Source: an uncultured Clostridia bacterium (GTDB lineage: Bacteria; Bacillota; Clostridia; Oscillospirales; Acutalibacteraceae). Taken from it: a stretch of 64,000 nt of DNA. The stretch is taken from contig CANQZA010000003.1 in the NCBI GenBank assembly GCA_947628175.1, positions 1 through 64,000 of the forward strand, in the 5' to 3' direction. The notes beneath the pieces are model-generated. The model was given only the letters and a program-made list of their open reading frames with translations. It made no database searches and was not told where the DNA came from. A program made the translations under genes and the position numbers. Of the stretch, positions 14,990-61,273 are shown piece after piece (the stretch's first letter is position 1; every line of letters starts with the position of its first letter).

Positions 14990-15460
14990 ATGCATATGTA
15001 TATAAAAGAAATTTATGATGATACGGAAAAACAATGTATTACCAGATGTATAATAGAAAACCTTACCGATTGGTTTGCCATCCCGTTAGCCAGAGAAAAA
15101 TACATACAAAATAGTGCGGGAAAACATTATTTTTGCGCCTATGTCAAGGATAAACCTGTTGGATTTCTCTATCTTAAACAAACGGGCAAGGATACACTTG
15201 AACTTGAAATAATGGGTGTTTTGAAAAAATATCACAGAAACGGCATAGGTAAGGCGTTATTTGAAAATGCCAAGGCGTTGGCTCGTGAAAACGGATATTC
15301 TTTTATCCAAGTCAAAACCGTACAGATGGGGAAATATAAACATTATGACAATACCAATAAATTTTATCTTTCGTTAGGATTTAAAGAACTTGAAGTATTT
15401 CCCACATTGTGGGATAAAGATAACCCATGTCAAGTCTATGTGATTTCATTAACGGAATGA
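14990..15460 (+). CDS. GNAT family N-acetyltransferase
   Basis: GVLKKYHRNGIGKALFENAKALARENGYSFIQVKT acetyl-CoA binding motif. Confidence 0.88.
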   Translation: MHMYIKEIYDDTEKQCITRCIIENLTDWFAIPLAREKYIQNSAGKHYFCAYVKDKPVGFLYLKQTGKDTLELEIMGVLKKYHRNGIGKALFENAKALARENGYSFIQVKTVQMGKYKHYDNTNKFYLSLGFKELEVFPTLWDKDNPCQVYVISLTE

Positions 15461-16151: not shown

Positions 16152-16174
16152 TTCAACACCTCTAAATTATTGAT

Positions 16175-16208
16175 AAAAAAATCACCGCTGATAAAATCAG
16201 AGGTGATT
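16175..16208 (-). terminator. intrinsic terminator (attenuator) upstream of the GNAT gene
   Basis: AATCACC-t-CTGAT-ttt-ATCAG-c-GGTGATT followed by TTTTT, ~24 nt before the GNAT start codon. Confidence 0.8.
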
Positions 16209-16230
16209 CAATATCCGTATAAAAAGGTAT

Positions 16231-16281
16231 TTATCCCGCAGACAAAACGGCATCTGATTTTATCAGTATAACATTTGTCAT
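16231..16281 (-). CDS. 16-aa putative leader peptide MTNVILIKSDAVLSAG
   Basis: ATG preceded by GAGGTGG; ends in TAA before the terminator; contains the antiterminator strand CTGATAAAATCAG. Confidence 0.65.
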   Translation of the reverse strand: MTNVILIKSDAVLSAG

Positions 16282-16315
16282 TTTGTCCACCTCGCTTTCT
16301 TTTTTGGATAATATG

Positions 16316-16344
16316 ATAATATCATAAAAATCGTAAATTGTCAA
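16316..16344 (-). promoter_or_regulatory. sigma-A-like promoter of leader/GNAT
   Basis: TTGACA - 17 nt - TATTAT on the minus strand. Confidence 0.8.
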
Positions 16345-16415
16345 TTTCAGTAATTTTCATTTTATTTAAAAATAAAATAAAACAACCTTAACAAAAAGCT
16401 AAGACTGTTTCATTT

Positions 16416-25251: not shown

Positions 25252-25338
25252 GCAGGTATGGTGAAACTGGCAAACACGCTGGATTTAGGATCCAGTGGAG
25301 CGATCTCCTTGCAGGTTCAAGTCCTGTTACCTGCACCA
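25252..25338 (+). tRNA. tRNA-Leu (TAG), CCA encoded; left boundary of the integrated element
   Basis: GCAGGTATGGTGAAACTGGCAAACACGCTGGATTTAGGATCCAG...GGTTCAAGTCCTGTTACCTGCACCA; anticodon TAG. Confidence 0.95.
25285..25338 (+). repeat. attachment-site direct repeat, left (within tRNA-Leu)
   Basis: TTAGGATCCAGTGGAGCGATCTCCTTGCAGGTTCAAGTCCTGTTACCTGCACCA. Confidence 0.88.
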
Positions 25339-25383
25339 CAAAGCAGCAAGCTTTTCGGCTTGCTGCTTTTCTCTTTTTGGATT

Positions 25384-26991
25384 CTATGATGCTATTGATG
25401 AATCTACCAATTCACCAGTATCATAGATATCAGTGTGGCTTTTAAATCTGCCATTAAGTGTTATGTTTACATCTAATTTGCCGTTCACTTCAGATATTTT
25501 AATATGATCAACCAACATTCTTAAATCAGAATCATTGATTGATTTCTCTTCAATGATTTTGTCGAGCACTTCAATGCTACTTTTGATATCAGCCTTTCGC
25601 TTTTTAATGGTTTCGTCTATATGCTCGATTTCATCGATTCTTTTTGATATTCTTTCAATATCGTTTTCGCATTTCTCAAGCATTTGAGTGTAAACATCAG
25701 CTCGCTCTTTATCCCTCAATCGTTCAAGCAAGATTTCTTCTTGATCTAATTTTCTTTGAGATAGTTGTTCAGTCAAGGATTTAATGTTGTTTTGGCTGAG
25801 CGCTTTGTTCTGCTTCCACAGACTTAACTTTGCATCAATCTGCTTAAAATTTTCCTGTGCCTGTTGTCTGATGTTTAACAATTCTGAATATACAATTTCA
25901 TCGAGTACACTTTCATTTATTCTGTGTGGACTGCAATGCTCTTTACCATATCGATGGTAGCTGTTGCAGACATATTCAATTCTGTCGGGTTTATCTTTAC
26001 ATTTCCTGATTTTGCACGAGAATGAAGATCCACAGTCACCGCACTTAATCAAACCTGTATATCTATGATAAGGTTTATCGAAGTTTGATCTCACATTATC
26101 TTTTTTCTTGCTTTCAAGCAGCATCTGAACTTTGTCAAAATCTTCTTTGCTTATTAGTGCAGGAACTGCATTGTCATGCCTGATTTGTTCGTCTGTTGAA
26201 TAAGTTTTTCTCTGCTTGTTTATCTTGTCAAGCATGTACTTATGATTAACAAGATTACCACAATAAAATTCATTTATTAACACTCGTTTAACTGCTGTGC
26301 CATTCCATAAATACCTTGTAGTTATTTCGGGTTTATTGTACCCTTGTTTTTTATTAAGATATTTCAGTTGATAGTATGCAGGTGTCTTTAATCCTTCAGC
26401 ATTTAATTTGTGAGCAATGTTTTTCAGTCCATAACCATCAAGATACATTTGAAATATCCTTCTGACAATGTTTGCAGGTTCTTCCATTATGAGAATCTCT
26501 TTTGTATTCTTGTCTTTGAAATATCCCATCGGAGGTATCATAACCAATCCTTCTTTTTGCTTTTGAAGAAATCCAGCACGAACTTTTCGACTGATGTCAC
26601 GGGCATACATATCATTGAACAAACCTTTGAATCCGATAATTAAATCATCATTCTCATTACTTGTGTCAAGATTTTCTGTAACAGATAACACTTTAACATC
26701 ATTTTCACGCAAATAATCAATGAACAATGCCGTTTGCGTTTTATGTCTGCCAAGTCTTGACATATCCTTAACGATGACTGCATCAATTAATTTATTCTCA
26801 ACAGCTTCATAAATTTTATTGATACCATCACGGTTAAAATGCATACCGCTTACATTGTCATCAAAGGATTCACCGACGATATTAAAACCATTTTTGTTTG
26901 CATATTCTCTGATAATGTTCTGCTGATTTGTCAATGAATTTAATTCGTCATCTTCATCTCTTGAGAGTCGTGCATATAACCATACTCGCAT
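25384..26991 (-). CDS. large serine recombinase (resolvase/recombinase/zinc-ribbon)
   Basis: MRVWLYARLSRDEDDELNSLTNQ, VKDMSRLGRHKT, CGDCGSSFSCK zinc beta-ribbon, coiled-coil C-terminus; start at 26991 after GGAGTGAT. Confidence 0.94.
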   Translation of the reverse strand: MRVWLYARLSRDEDDELNSLTNQQNIIREYANKNGFNIVGESFDDNVSGMHFNRDGINKIYEAVENKLIDAVIVKDMSRLGRHKTQTALFIDYLRENDVKVLSVTENLDTSNENDDLIIGFKGLFNDMYARDISRKVRAGFLQKQKEGLVMIPPMGYFKDKNTKEILIMEEPANIVRRIFQMYLDGYGLKNIAHKLNAEGLKTPAYYQLKYLNKKQGYNKPEITTRYLWNGTAVKRVLINEFYCGNLVNHKYMLDKINKQRKTYSTDEQIRHDNAVPALISKEDFDKVQMLLESKKKDNVRSNFDKPYHRYTGLIKCGDCGSSFSCKIRKCKDKPDRIEYVCNSYHRYGKEHCSPHRINESVLDEIVYSELLNIRQQAQENFKQIDAKLSLWKQNKALSQNNIKSLTEQLSQRKLDQEEILLERLRDKERADVYTQMLEKCENDIERISKRIDEIEHIDETIKKRKADIKSSIEVLDKIIEEKSINDSDLRMLVDHIKISEVNGKLDVNITLNGRFKSHTDIYDTGELVDSSIAS

Positions 26992-27020
26992 TTTATCACT
27001 CCTTTCGCAAGCACACATTA

Positions 27021-27197
27021 TCACAACTCCTTTTCCAAGTCCAGACGATTAGAATTATTTTCATTGCAGATTGAAATATCGTTGTTGAATAGATAATTTT
27101 TGATGATAGATTCTAAAAATTTATCAAATTCATTTTGCTTTCCGTTGTAGGAAATCGTAACACTGTTAATGTTATTTTGAATTTTATTCGTTGCCAT
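27021..27197 (-). CDS. small hypothetical protein (58 aa)
   Basis: MATNKIQNNINSVTISYNGKQNEFDKFLESIIKNYLFNNDISICNENNSNRLDLEKEL; lies tightly in the minus-strand mob-recombinase gene string. Confidence 0.5.
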   Translation of the reverse strand: MATNKIQNNINSVTISYNGKQNEFDKFLESIIKNYLFNNDISICNENNSNRLDLEKEL

Positions 27198-27212
27198 ACG
27201 GCAACACAGAAT

Positions 27213-27341
27213 CTAAAACTTTTCCGTCATTCCCCCAATCAAATTGTATTTGCGATAATAATTATCGACTTGGATTTCAGTTTTTGTTTCATATATTTCC
27301 TTTCCGCCTGCCGATTGATCTGCAGGACTTTTTAATTTCAC
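27213..27341 (-). CDS. small hypothetical protein (42 aa, GTG start overlapping relaxase stop)
   Basis: VKLKSPADQSAGGKEIYETKTEIQVDNYYRKYNLIGGMTEKF; ATGTGA overlap suggests translational coupling. Confidence 0.45.
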   Translation of the reverse strand: MKLKSPADQSAGGKEIYETKTEIQVDNYYRKYNLIGGMTEKF

Positions 27342-28324
27342 ATAAACAAACCGATACCGTGGTTTTGTTCCTGATTGTTGTATTCATTTCTGCAATGAGC
27401 AAGCTGTGCTTTTGTAATTTTCAATCCGTGAGCACGCATTTTTTCAATGATTTTATCAAGTTCCATATCTTCAATTTCGACTGCATAATAATCATCGTTC
27501 TGTTCAATCGTTGGCAAATTTGAAAGCATTTCAAAAATATTTGCAGTCAATCCGTCTGTGCAATTACCCGATGTTGGTGTTTTGTATTCGAGTATGTCCT
27601 CTGCAAGAATTGAATTGCAGCCGCCCAAGTCAAAATATATTTCAAGATTTTTCTTTAGTAATCTCTCATCAAACAATTTTGCATCACGACACCTATGACC
27701 TTCACTGTCTGTGTAAGTCATATATTTGTATTTCGGATCGTACTTGATATCAATTCCGTGCATGCTCATTTTCCAAATGAATTCTTCCATATCGTAGGAC
27801 TCTTGCATCATTTTCAATGCCCAATATCTAATTCTTTGTTTCCATTTTGGATTTTCATTTCGTCTTGTTTTTGCTTCGGTAACGATAAATCCGTTCTCTT
27901 TGCACAACTGATTAGAATAATTTTTTATATCAAGTAAGTTTTGTGGTGAGATATTCATCTTCTTACCGTCCTTGTGGCTGACAGAATTGATAATGAAATG
28001 ATTGTGCATATGCTTTTTATCAATGTGTGTTGCAACGAGAACTTGAAATTCGGGGAAACAATGCTCAGCCATTTGCATACCAATTTCGTGACATTTTTCG
28101 GCTGTGATGTCATCATCCTGAGCAAAGGATTGTATCATATGGTAGTAAGTTCTACCGCCTTGCTTGTTAAAGTTATTTCGCACCATCTCAAATTCATCGT
28201 AACAGCTTTCGGGCATACAATTCTTTCCGCTGATTAACTTTTCCAAAGTTTTCTCTTTATTGCAAACATAATCAATACCTATACGAGCAGATATTTTTGC
28301 AGAGCTGAGTTTAATAATTGCCAT
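27338..28324 (-). CDS. relaxase/mobilization nuclease (MobP/VirD2-like)
   Basis: GGRTYYHMIQSFAQDD...ATHIDKKHMHNHFIINSV HxxxHxHxH-type relaxase motif III. Confidence 0.92.
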   Translation of the reverse strand: MAIIKLSSAKISARIGIDYVCNKEKTLEKLISGKNCMPESCYDEFEMVRNNFNKQGGRTYYHMIQSFAQDDDITAEKCHEIGMQMAEHCFPEFQVLVATHIDKKHMHNHFIINSVSHKDGKKMNISPQNLLDIKNYSNQLCKENGFIVTEAKTRRNENPKWKQRIRYWALKMMQESYDMEEFIWKMSMHGIDIKYDPKYKYMTYTDSEGHRCRDAKLFDERLLKKNLEIYFDLGGCNSILAEDILEYKTPTSGNCTDGLTANIFEMLSNLPTIEQNDDYYAVEIEDMELDKIIEKMRAHGLKITKAQLAHCRNEYNNQEQNHGIGLFM

Positions 28325-58384: not shown

Positions 58385-58624
58385 ACTTCAATATTGAATG
58401 GCAATGAGGAAGAGGAGTACTCTGCTGCGTCTTTTAAGAGAGTGTCCGTTTGGTGAAAGGAGCAGGGCAGGCAGAGGAAGGTAGCTTCTGAGCCGGTATT
58501 ATGAACAGAGTAGTTTTATCCGTATGTCTGCGTTAAAGGCTTTGAGCGGCATTGAATCAATGCAATTTGAGTGGTACCACGGAAGTATGTGCTTTCGCCT
58601 CATATGAGGTGAAAGCATTTTTAT
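58385..58624 (+). promoter_or_regulatory. T-box leader of valS
   Basis: AGTA and AGAGAG/GGTGAAA stem I motifs, conserved TTTGAGTGGTACCACGG T-box sequence, terminator TGCTTTCGCCTCATATGAGGTGAAAGCATTTTT. Confidence 0.88.
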
Positions 58625-58642: not shown

Positions 58643-61273
58643 ATGGCAAAAGAACTTGCAAAGCAGTATAATCCTTCTGATGTGGAGGAACGCACATATA
58701 AATTCTGGTGTGATCATAAGTATTTCCATGCACAGGTGAATTCTGATAAAAAGCCTTATACCATTGTTATTCCTCCGCCGAATATCACGGGTCAGCTCCA
58801 TATGGGGCACGCTCTTGATAATACGCTTCAGGATATTCTTATCCGATGGCGAAGAATGCAGGGTTATGAGGCATTATGGCTTCCCGGTACGGACCATGCT
58901 TCCATTGCCACTGAGGCAAAGATTGTTGAGGCTATGCGGGAAGAAGGTCTGACAAAGGAGAGTATAGGAAGAGAAGCTTTTCTGAAAAGAGCATGGGACT
59001 GGAAGGATAAATACGGTTCTCGAATTATTGAGCAGCTTAAAAAGATGGGCTCCTCCTGTGACTGGGACAGAGAGCGCTTTACGCTTGATGAAGGCTGTTC
59101 AAAGGCTGTTAACCGTGTTTTTGAAAATCTGTATAAAAAAGGGTTGATATACCGCGGTGAAAGAATTGTAAACTGGTGTCCGCATTGTTTAACCTCCATT
59201 TCGGATGCTGAGGTGGAATATGAGGATCAGGCCGGTCATTTTTGGCACATCAAATATCCTTTCACGGATGGCACCGGTTATCTTGAGCTTGCGACAACAA
59301 GACCTGAAACGCTCCTCGGCGATACCGCAGTCGCAGTAAATCCCAATGATGAAAGATATAAGCATTTGATTGGCAAAATGCTTGACCTTCCTCTTGTTCA
59401 CCGCTACATTCCTGTTATTGCGGACGATTATGTTGATATAGAATTTGGAACAGGTGTTGTTAAAATTACGCCTGCACATGACCCTAACGATTTCGAGGTC
59501 GGCTTACGGCATAATCTTGAAGTGATAGATGTGCTCACAGACGATGCTCATATAAAAGATGGTTGGGGAAGATACAGCGGTATGGACCGCTATGAGGCAA
59601 GAAAGGCAATTGTTGAGGATCTTGAAAAAGAGGGCGCACTGCTTGAAGTGGAAGATTACAGTCATAATGTAGGAACATGCTACCGCTGCGGTACAACAAT
59701 TGAACCGAAGGTTTCAAAGCAATGGTTTGTATCCATGAAGCCGCTTGCCGGTCCCGCGATTGATGCTGTAAAGAAAGGCGAAACAAAGTTTGTCCCCGAA
59801 CGATTTGAGAAAGTATATTTTCATTGGCTGGAGAATATTCGAGACTGGTGTATTTCAAGGCAGCTTTGGTGGGGACACAGAATTCCCGCGTATTATTGCG
59901 ATGACTGCAGTGAGATAACCGTAAGTGCAGATGCTGTCGAAAAATGCCCAAAATGTGGCAGTCACCATATTCATCAGGATCCGGATACACTCGATACATG
60001 GTTCAGTTCTGCCTTGTGGCCGTTCAGCACAATGGGATGGCCTGACGAGACTGAGGAATTAAAATATTTTTATCCGACAAATACACTCGTAACAGGATAT
60101 GATATTATTCCGTTCTGGGTTATGAGAATGATGTTTTCTGCGCTTGAGCAGACAGGTCAGGTGCCTTTTGATACTGTTCTCATTCATGGTCTTGTCCGTG
60201 ATGCGCAGGGCAGGAAAATGAGCAAATCTCTCGGAAACGGTATTGATCCGTTGCTCATCATTGATGAGTACGGTGCGGATGCTTTGCGGTTTACGCTTGC
60301 GACAGGCAATGCTCCCGGTAATGATATGCGGTTTTCTGACGATAAGGTTAAAGCGTCAAGAAATTTTGCGAATAAGCTGTGGAACGCTGCACGCTTTGTC
60401 CTTATGTACATTACGGATGATTTTCAGTATGAAGGACTTGATGCGGAGCTTGCAATTGAGGATAAGTGGATTGTTTCAAAGGTGAATACACTTGCAAAAG
60501 AAGTAACAGAAAATCTTGAAAAGTTTGAGCTCGGCATTGCAGTTCAAAAGCTGTACGACTTTATATGGGATGTTTTTTGCGATTGGTATATTGAAATATC
60601 GAAAATAAGGCTTCAGAGTGATGACGCAAAGGCAAAAAATACGGCTGTATCAACTCTTTTGTATGTTCTGACCGATATTCTTAAGTTGCTTCATCCGTTT
60701 ATGCCGTTTATCACAGAAGAAATATATCAGGTAATTCCCCACGATGAAGAATCAATTATGATTTCAAAATGGGTTCAATATGATGAAACGCTCCATTTTG
60801 TCGGTGAAGAAGCTGAGATGGAAGTAATTATGGCAGCTATCCGAGCTATCAGAAATACAAGGGCACAGATGAATATACCGCCGAGCAAAAAGGCCAAGAT
60901 TTATATTGAAACACAACTTGGTGATACTTTCAAAAACGGTGCAAAGTTTATAGAAAGACTTGCATCTTCAAATGAAATCAGTGTCTCTGCTTCTTATGAT
61001 GATCTGGGAAATACGGTTACAATAATCACGGACGAAGCTAAAATCTATATCCCAATGGGTGAACTTGTGGATTTTAAGACAGAGAGAAAGCGCCTTGAAA
61101 AGGAACTTGCACAGTGTAATGATAAGCTTGATTTTATAAATAAAAAGCTGTCAAATCCCGGCTTTGTGAATAAGGCTCCCGAAAAGGTTGTTGCGCAGAA
61201 TAAACAGGATGCCGAAAAGCTGATGGAAAGAATTGCAAATATTAAAAAAACAATTGAGGATTTAGAGCAGTAA
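58643..61273 (+). CDS. valS: valyl-tRNA synthetase
   Basis: PPPNITGQLHMGHALDNTLQD HIGH motif, GRKMSKSLGNGIDPL KMSKS motif, C-terminal coiled coil. Confidence 0.97.
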   Translation: MAKELAKQYNPSDVEERTYKFWCDHKYFHAQVNSDKKPYTIVIPPPNITGQLHMGHALDNTLQDILIRWRRMQGYEALWLPGTDHASIATEAKIVEAMREEGLTKESIGREAFLKRAWDWKDKYGSRIIEQLKKMGSSCDWDRERFTLDEGCSKAVNRVFENLYKKGLIYRGERIVNWCPHCLTSISDAEVEYEDQAGHFWHIKYPFTDGTGYLELATTRPETLLGDTAVAVNPNDERYKHLIGKMLDLPLVHRYIPVIADDYVDIEFGTGVVKITPAHDPNDFEVGLRHNLEVIDVLTDDAHIKDGWGRYSGMDRYEARKAIVEDLEKEGALLEVEDYSHNVGTCYRCGTTIEPKVSKQWFVSMKPLAGPAIDAVKKGETKFVPERFEKVYFHWLENIRDWCISRQLWWGHRIPAYYCDDCSEITVSADAVEKCPKCGSHHIHQDPDTLDTWFSSALWPFSTMGWPDETEELKYFYPTNTLVTGYDIIPFWVMRMMFSALEQTGQVPFDTVLIHGLVRDAQGRKMSKSLGNGIDPLLIIDEYGADALRFTLATGNAPGNDMRFSDDKVKASRNFANKLWNAARFVLMYITDDFQYEGLDAELAIEDKWIVSKVNTLAKEVTENLEKFELGIAVQKLYDFIWDVFCDWYIEISKIRLQSDDAKAKNTAVSTLLYVLTDILKLLHPFMPFITEEIYQVIPHDEESIMISKWVQYDETLHFVGEEAEMEVIMAAIRAIRNTRAQMNIPPSKKAKIYIETQLGDTFKNGAKFIERLASSNEISVSASYDDLGNTVTIITDEAKIYIPMGELVDFKTERKRLEKELAQCNDKLDFINKKLSNPGFVNKAPEKVVAQNKQDAEKLMERIANIKKTIEDLEQ

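Follow-up and report, generated by a model that had tools for sequence, protein, structure and literature searches.

One important question raised by this locus is whether the short leader ORF in front of a GNAT acetyltransferase gene acts as a switch for that gene and, if so, at which ribosome position the switch would be thrown. In the window, that is, the whole stretch of 64,000 nucleotides analysed here, the earlier note had placed a promoter, a Shine-Dalgarno sequence (SD), a 16-codon leader ORF, an intrinsic terminator and the GNAT gene one after another on the minus strand, and had read them as an attenuator of the erm/vml/bmr kind. All of these parts were found in the window sequence at the positions claimed (Table 1). 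The mechanism proposed there is correct in kind, and the leader belongs to a large, previously undescribed family in gut Clostridia, new in breadth and form.

Parts of the leader and their competing pairings

Table 1. Leader and gene features of the GNAT locus in the window
Feature	Position	Strand	Remarks
Promoter	16344-16316	(-)	-35 TTGACA 16344-16339, 17-nt spacer, -10 TATTAT 16321-16316
Leader SD, GAGGTGG	16293-16287	(-)	AGGTGG in 9/9 leaders found via the GNAT protein, not via the motif
Arm A, GGACAAAATG	16288-16279	(-)	Spans SD end and leader start codon; partner is arm C (anti-antiterminator); 10-12 bp helix
Leader ORF, MTNVILIKSDAVLSAG*	16281-16231	(-)	16 codons and stop
Arm B, CTGATAAAATCAG	16266-16254	(-)	Antiterminator arm within the leader ORF; first base is nt 16 from the A of AUG
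Arm C, CGTTTTGTCT	16249-16240	(-)	Partner of arm A; conceals leader SD/start
Segment D, ATACCTTTTTATACGGATAT region	16230-16209	(-)	Complementary to the SD region of the GNAT gene; putative translational layer
Intrinsic terminator hairpin	16208-16180	(-)	Arm E AATCACCtCTGAT 16208-16196, loop TTT, arm F ATCAGcGGTGATT 16192-16180
Terminator T run	16180-16174	(-)	First T doubles as stem-closing base
GNAT gene SD, AGAGGTG	16163-16157	(-)	Between terminator and GNAT
GNAT acetyltransferase gene, 168 aa	16151-15645	(-)	PF00583, 4.8e-9

The promoter matches the consensus at 11 of 12 positions. Four pairings compete in the leader RNA, namely A:C, B:E (in which arm B takes the 5' arm and loop of the terminator), E:F and a pairing of segment D with the SD of the GNAT gene. 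The last of these, overlooked in the earlier note, is present in the minimum free energy fold of the window leader. The antiterminator match was exact as described, CTGATAAAATCAG being the reverse complement of CTGATTTTATCAG (16200-16188) over 13 nt, or 14 nt with one flanking base included, and the third helix, given before as GACAAAA with TTTTGTC, was confirmed as a longer A:C pairing that takes in the start codon. The energies of the helices are similar (A:C -12.7, B:E -13.8 and terminator -13.3 kcal/mol). The leader RNA is more stable than 200 of 200 shuffles (z -4.3), and 300 shuffles gave no inverted match longer than 11 nt, as against 14 nt in the leader. Arm B of the window is itself palindromic (CTGAT-AAA-ATCAG), and part of its match to the terminator follows simply because both are the same hairpin; hence selection on the B:E pairing is shown by the family comparison given below and not by the match in the window.

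Other features of the window were recorded. A second GNAT-family gene, at 14990-15460 on the opposite strand, adjoins the first and lacks this leader. A tRNA-Leu (TAG) gene lies in the interval 25252-28324, and genes for a serine-recombinase-like protein (25384-27024) and a relaxase-like protein (27338-28324), both recognised by eye from their translations, come after it on the other strand; the interval is probably an integrated mobilizable element beside a tRNA gene. A T-box leader (Rfam RF00230, 120 bits) lies at 58395-58605, upstream of a valyl-tRNA synthetase-like gene (58643-61273).

The leader family and the genes behind it

Genome contigs were scanned with the pattern AGGTGGACAARATGN{15,45}TTTTGTCYG. 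At least 117 loci match it, not all of them proven members; among the matches listed, nearly all belong to Clostridia, many of them of animal-gut origin, and Paenibacillus and a Bacilli MAG contribute one case each. Named isolates among the carriers include Paenibacillus ginsengarvi KCTC 13059 (L069) and Pseudoflavonifractor capillosus An386a (L042). The reversed pattern, used as control, had no match in about 790 genomes, and in samples of 391 genomes of the class and 399 genomes of the phylum the exact pattern turned up in one further genome and in no further genome, respectively. When homologues of the GNAT protein were searched instead, the same leader was present at 9 of 16 places, the window's own counted, with homologues from other genera of the same taxonomic family, and was missing upstream of the remaining homologues among these 16. 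A covariance model (E<=0.01) matched in 77 of 398 genomes of the host's taxonomic family, with up to six matches per genome, the weakest of which are uncertain, and a phylum-wide search with it returned just weak matches outside that family. The window's own genome carries a single copy of the leader, as against 19 PF00583 genes. In three genomes of genus g76 (G320, G261 and G187) four to six model matches per genome stand before different genes. The leader had no match in Rfam at gathering or relaxed thresholds. Viral contigs contained no instance of the pattern and distant blastn against plasmids and phages gave short chance matches alone, so there is no sign of the leader on known plasmids or phages. 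An earlier description of the family was not found in the main texts of open-licence papers.

Three pattern matches are of questionable membership or spurious: L127 sits within a long ORF (441 codons), L087 has an unconvincing terminator and L073 lacks the layout. At L130 (5422-5566) another inverted repeat (GGGGCTGTTGCAAATG...GAAACAGCCC) occupies the usual place of the terminator and resembles an insertion-element end between leader and gene. The covariation and permutation sets omit L127, L087 and L130.

Two main subtypes were distinguished, 16-codon leaders with CTGATAAAATCA as arm B, to which the window leader belongs, and 18-codon leaders ending in LSVCD/K, in which arm B directly precedes arm C and the B:E helix has a one-base bulge. 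Among the matches listed, 115 of 117 keep arm C in frame with the start codon, and a stop codon follows 6 or 9 nt past TTTTGTCC in 110 of 117. A TATAAT-like box (at most one mismatch) was found in 101 of 110 upstream stretches of relatives, as against 64 expected from shuffles; its distance upstream of AGGTGG peaks at 20-23 nt.

The genes behind these leaders are varied. PF00583 was detected in 57 of the 95 downstream proteins scanned and the NAT_N/GNAT_C pair in 7; the others include histidine phosphatases, MFS and ABC transporters, methyltransferases, phosphorylase-family and HAD proteins and LD-carboxypeptidases, and members found with the covariance model precede a protein-kinase-like protein, GrpB and LytTR response regulators. 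The LytTR (AgrA-like) regulators stand behind a diverged group with longer leaders (L181, L184, L189, L192, L195, L198, L200 and L208), the assignment being confirmed by Pfam for L192. No ABC-F gene was assigned among the downstream proteins examined, the window gene being a GNAT. In 216 pairs of leaders with 85% identity or more, the proteins encoded downstream are non-homologous, and at L019 and L045 the sequence similarity spans promoter and leader and stops at the terminator. Both observations indicate that the leader is, as far as sequence comparison goes, a portable module, found in gut Clostridia ahead of many genes for enzymes and exporters.

Part of this gene list fits detoxification (efflux pumps, the kinase-like protein, GrpB, methyltransferases), whereas LD-carboxypeptidase and the response regulators have no obvious fit to it. 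The window GNAT falls under every curated NCBIfam resistance cut-off, its best score being 17.9 bits against the 140 required for AAC_6p_group_E, and the downstream GNATs in general resemble AAC(6') and streptothricin acetyltransferases weakly, with scores far under the cut-offs. Its AlphaFold model (pLDDT 92) has a Lactobacillus GNAT and PaiA as nearest PDB folds; the fold is generic, and the structure comparison implied no substrate. Drug-inducible resistance is a putative label for the gene, which scores below all curated cut-offs, has a generic fold and shares its leader with many non-GNAT genes; a resistance role is nevertheless plausible.

Comparative evidence for the helices

The leader ORF and its pairings, whose loss at homologous loci the earlier note had named as evidence against its reading, were kept in a comparison of many instances, and the helices A:C, B:E and E:F are each supported by comparison of the aligned leaders. 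In the terminator, 10 of 11 pairs vary on both sides and 94.7% of cells are paired. The A:C helix is almost invariant among pattern-selected members, as a consequence of the scan pattern itself, which fixes A:C. Once diverged members found with the model were added, changes on both sides were seen at 7 of 10 A:C pairs, in an alignment that is structure-fitted and hence biased towards structure; the compensatory change GGATAAAATG/CATTTTATCC in L192 and L195 can be read directly in the sequences.

Covariation of B:E exceeded that of shuffles and of slid controls. Over 59 non-redundant leaders, arm B formed a duplex of -14.3 kcal/mol with its own terminator and of -10.0 (sd 0.41) with swapped ones, a difference that none of 2000 permutations reached, whether over all leaders or inside each subtype, although relatedness among the leader sequences inflates the test. 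At the level of the compared leaders, this shows that the B:E pairing is under selection.

The pairing of segment D with the SD of the main gene was treated in the same way. The own duplex averaged -12.6 kcal/mol against -9.5 (sd 0.33) when swapped (0 of 2000 permutations, and 9 of 2000 within the 18-codon subtype, with the same inflation by relatedness), and duplexes reaching SD-like purines were found in 52 of 59 leaders. Complementarity of D to the gene's SD is therefore supported by these comparisons. A pairing of the conserved ACGGAT with GTCCG at the leader end was also considered and rejected, pairing with the SD region of the gene giving the better account. Imposing the antiterminator on the window leader raised the accessibility of the SD from 0.00 to 0.68. 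A release of the gene SD through segment D upon antitermination was not borne out for the whole family, accessibility moving from 0.31 to 0.36 over 52 leaders, with 21 up and 18 down. The complementarity suggests a translational brake of the vmlR and cplR type for segment D, a layer that remains a proposal because SD accessibility has no clear trend over the 52 leaders.

Ribosome position, alternatives and known systems

The effect of a ribosome on the leader was modelled in 59 non-redundant leaders by masking its footprint, with edges at +12, +15 and +18, and cutting the transcript before the 3' arm of the terminator. The antiterminator formed in 98-100% of cases with the ribosome on codon 1, in 92-100% on codon 2 and in 0-14% on codons 6-13; without a ribosome it formed in 32%, and A:C in 68%. 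In 18-codon leaders a ribosome on the last codons frees arm B again, so that the late codons differ by subtype in the model. The fold model is nested, and a pseudoknot of A:C with B:E is outside its scoring, which makes the OFF state predicted for the ribosome-free leader less certain. In 57 of the 59 leaders the first base of arm B is nt 16 or later, counted from the A of AUG, just past the footprint of a ribosome on the start codon; under tetracycline, the footprint edge of ribosomes on start codons is at +16 to +18 (PMC12121999). In the model, a start-codon ribosome would thus open the anti-antiterminator and spare the antiterminator arm.

On these grounds, and by analogy, the leader is probably a ribosome-mediated transcription attenuator of the vmlR/cplR kind, tuned to ribosomes at or next to its start codon. 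In unstressed cells the A:C hairpin, or ribosomes translating the leader, would prevent arm B from pairing, the terminator E:F would form and transcription would end upstream of the GNAT gene. Under stress, a ribosome frozen at the leader AUG or the next codon (pleuromutilins, lincosamides and tetracyclines arrest at the start codon) would cover arm A and block A:C, and arm B, just beyond the leading edge of the ribosome, would capture the 5' arm of the terminator and permit readthrough into the GNAT gene. Segment D might add a second, translational brake on leaky transcripts. We infer the identity of the ON state, start-codon arrest as trigger, antibiotics as the natural signal and the role of the GNAT, and induction of the window leader by drugs is proposed in the same sense.

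In a nascent-peptide attenuator like those of erm and msrD, the sequence of the leader peptide would stall a drug-bound ribosome at a specific internal or final codon. The recurrence of a C-terminal V/I-L-S-(A/VC), the frame kept in 115 of 117 among the matches listed and the freeing of arm B by a ribosome at the leader end in the 18-codon subtype are what such an attenuator would lead one to expect, but the recurrent residues coincide with the RNA constraint from arms B and C, and a ribosome on the internal codons 6-13 gives the OFF state in the model. The frame itself shifts while arm B is kept in L032, L069 and L084, and while arm C is kept in L110. Arm B, being read in other frames in those three leaders, is conserved as RNA and not as peptide, which makes the nascent-peptide stall quite unlikely and argues for the start codon as the likely stall site, the position known from vmlR and cplR. 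From the erm/vml/bmr assignment of the earlier note, the comparison of many instances strongly upholds the ribosome-mediated layout, the antiterminator and the third helix, but not the erm-type stall.

Since arms B and C are adjacent, the helices A:C and B:E might form together in a pseudoknot, and an untranslated leader might then be another ON signal. Carried to its end, this would make the leader a sensor of failed or absent translation, in which stacking of A:C and B:E gives an H-type pseudoknot, the untranslated RNA antiterminates and nothing but translation to the leader end brings about termination. B and C lie side by side with scarcely any overlap, as in classical H-type pseudoknots, and A:C is nearly unchanged in the core members; against this, vmlR and cplR lose induction when translation of the uORF is disabled (PMC9226507, PMC10201436), and nested folding without a ribosome gives A:C alone in 68%. 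We regard this sensor as unlikely. An amino-acid-starvation attenuator of the trp/ilv type would have the same layout of leader ORF and terminator/antiterminator, but a run of regulatory codons is absent, codons 2-5 are freely variable and the downstream genes are non-biosynthetic, so it is very improbable. Terminators are commonly found upstream of genes, and the locus might be an ordinary terminator close to a promoter, with a short ORF there by chance; the conservation, the covariation and the kept frame contradict this, and leave it hardly credible.

The start-codon reading preferred here has experimental precedents. In vmlR of Bacillus subtilis the logic by which an initiating ribosome opens an anti-antiterminator has been shown experimentally (PMC9226507). 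There the uORF lies within the anti-antiterminator, and arrest of the initiating ribosome blocks this structure, so that the antiterminator forms and the terminator is avoided, a scheme that comparison and modelling suggest for the window leader too; the SD of vmlR is partly sequestered as a second layer, for which D:SD is the putative counterpart here (PMC9226507). The vmlR uORF has 3 codons, lies in a bulge with its SD free and controls an ABC-F gene (PMC9226507), whereas the present leaders have mostly 16-18 codons (more in diverged members), hold the end of their own SD and the AUG in a helix, and form one module before many unrelated gene types, mostly GNATs. In cplR of Clostridioides difficile, induction by start arrest was demonstrated with retapamulin and lincomycin (PMC10201436). 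It shares the intrinsic terminator, the antiterminator and the clostridial host with the leader family, in which SD sequestration is putative; a 3-codon MRI uORF, a terminator that itself conceals the cplR SD and a single ABC-F target set cplR apart from the family (PMC10201436).

The toiL uORF upstream of topAI-yjhQ in E. coli is also alike in that tetracycline and retapamulin stalls at the start codon switch expression, with the footprint edge at +16 to +18, but it is translational and Rho-dependent, has no intrinsic terminator, has several possible stall codons and is a single locus (PMC12121999). The erm/cat attenuators resemble the family in the leader peptide before a resistance gene and in the alternative helices (PMC5418344). 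Their stalls are drug- and peptide-specific (PMC5418344), whereas the leader family conserves its arms at the RNA level and has the start codon as ON position in the model.

More broadly, and only tentatively, the family might represent a general, portable start-arrest sensor, possibly pseudoknotted with the SD hairpin and the antiterminator stacked, whose placement before many unrelated genes would amount to an undescribed translation-inhibitor stimulon; the downstream GNAT, kinase-like, GrpB, methyltransferase and exporter genes would then form a hidden inducible detoxification set. If this is true, AGGTGGACAAAATG...TTTTGTCC with a matched terminator marks genes predicted to be ON in gut Clostridia at initiation arrest, candidate inducible resistance or detoxification enzymes could be found without knowledge of their substrates, and a large set of unannotated GNATs would be tied to one particular type of stress. 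It would also mean that the logic of vmlR and cplR, familiar from single ABC-F genes, serves as a general-purpose module.
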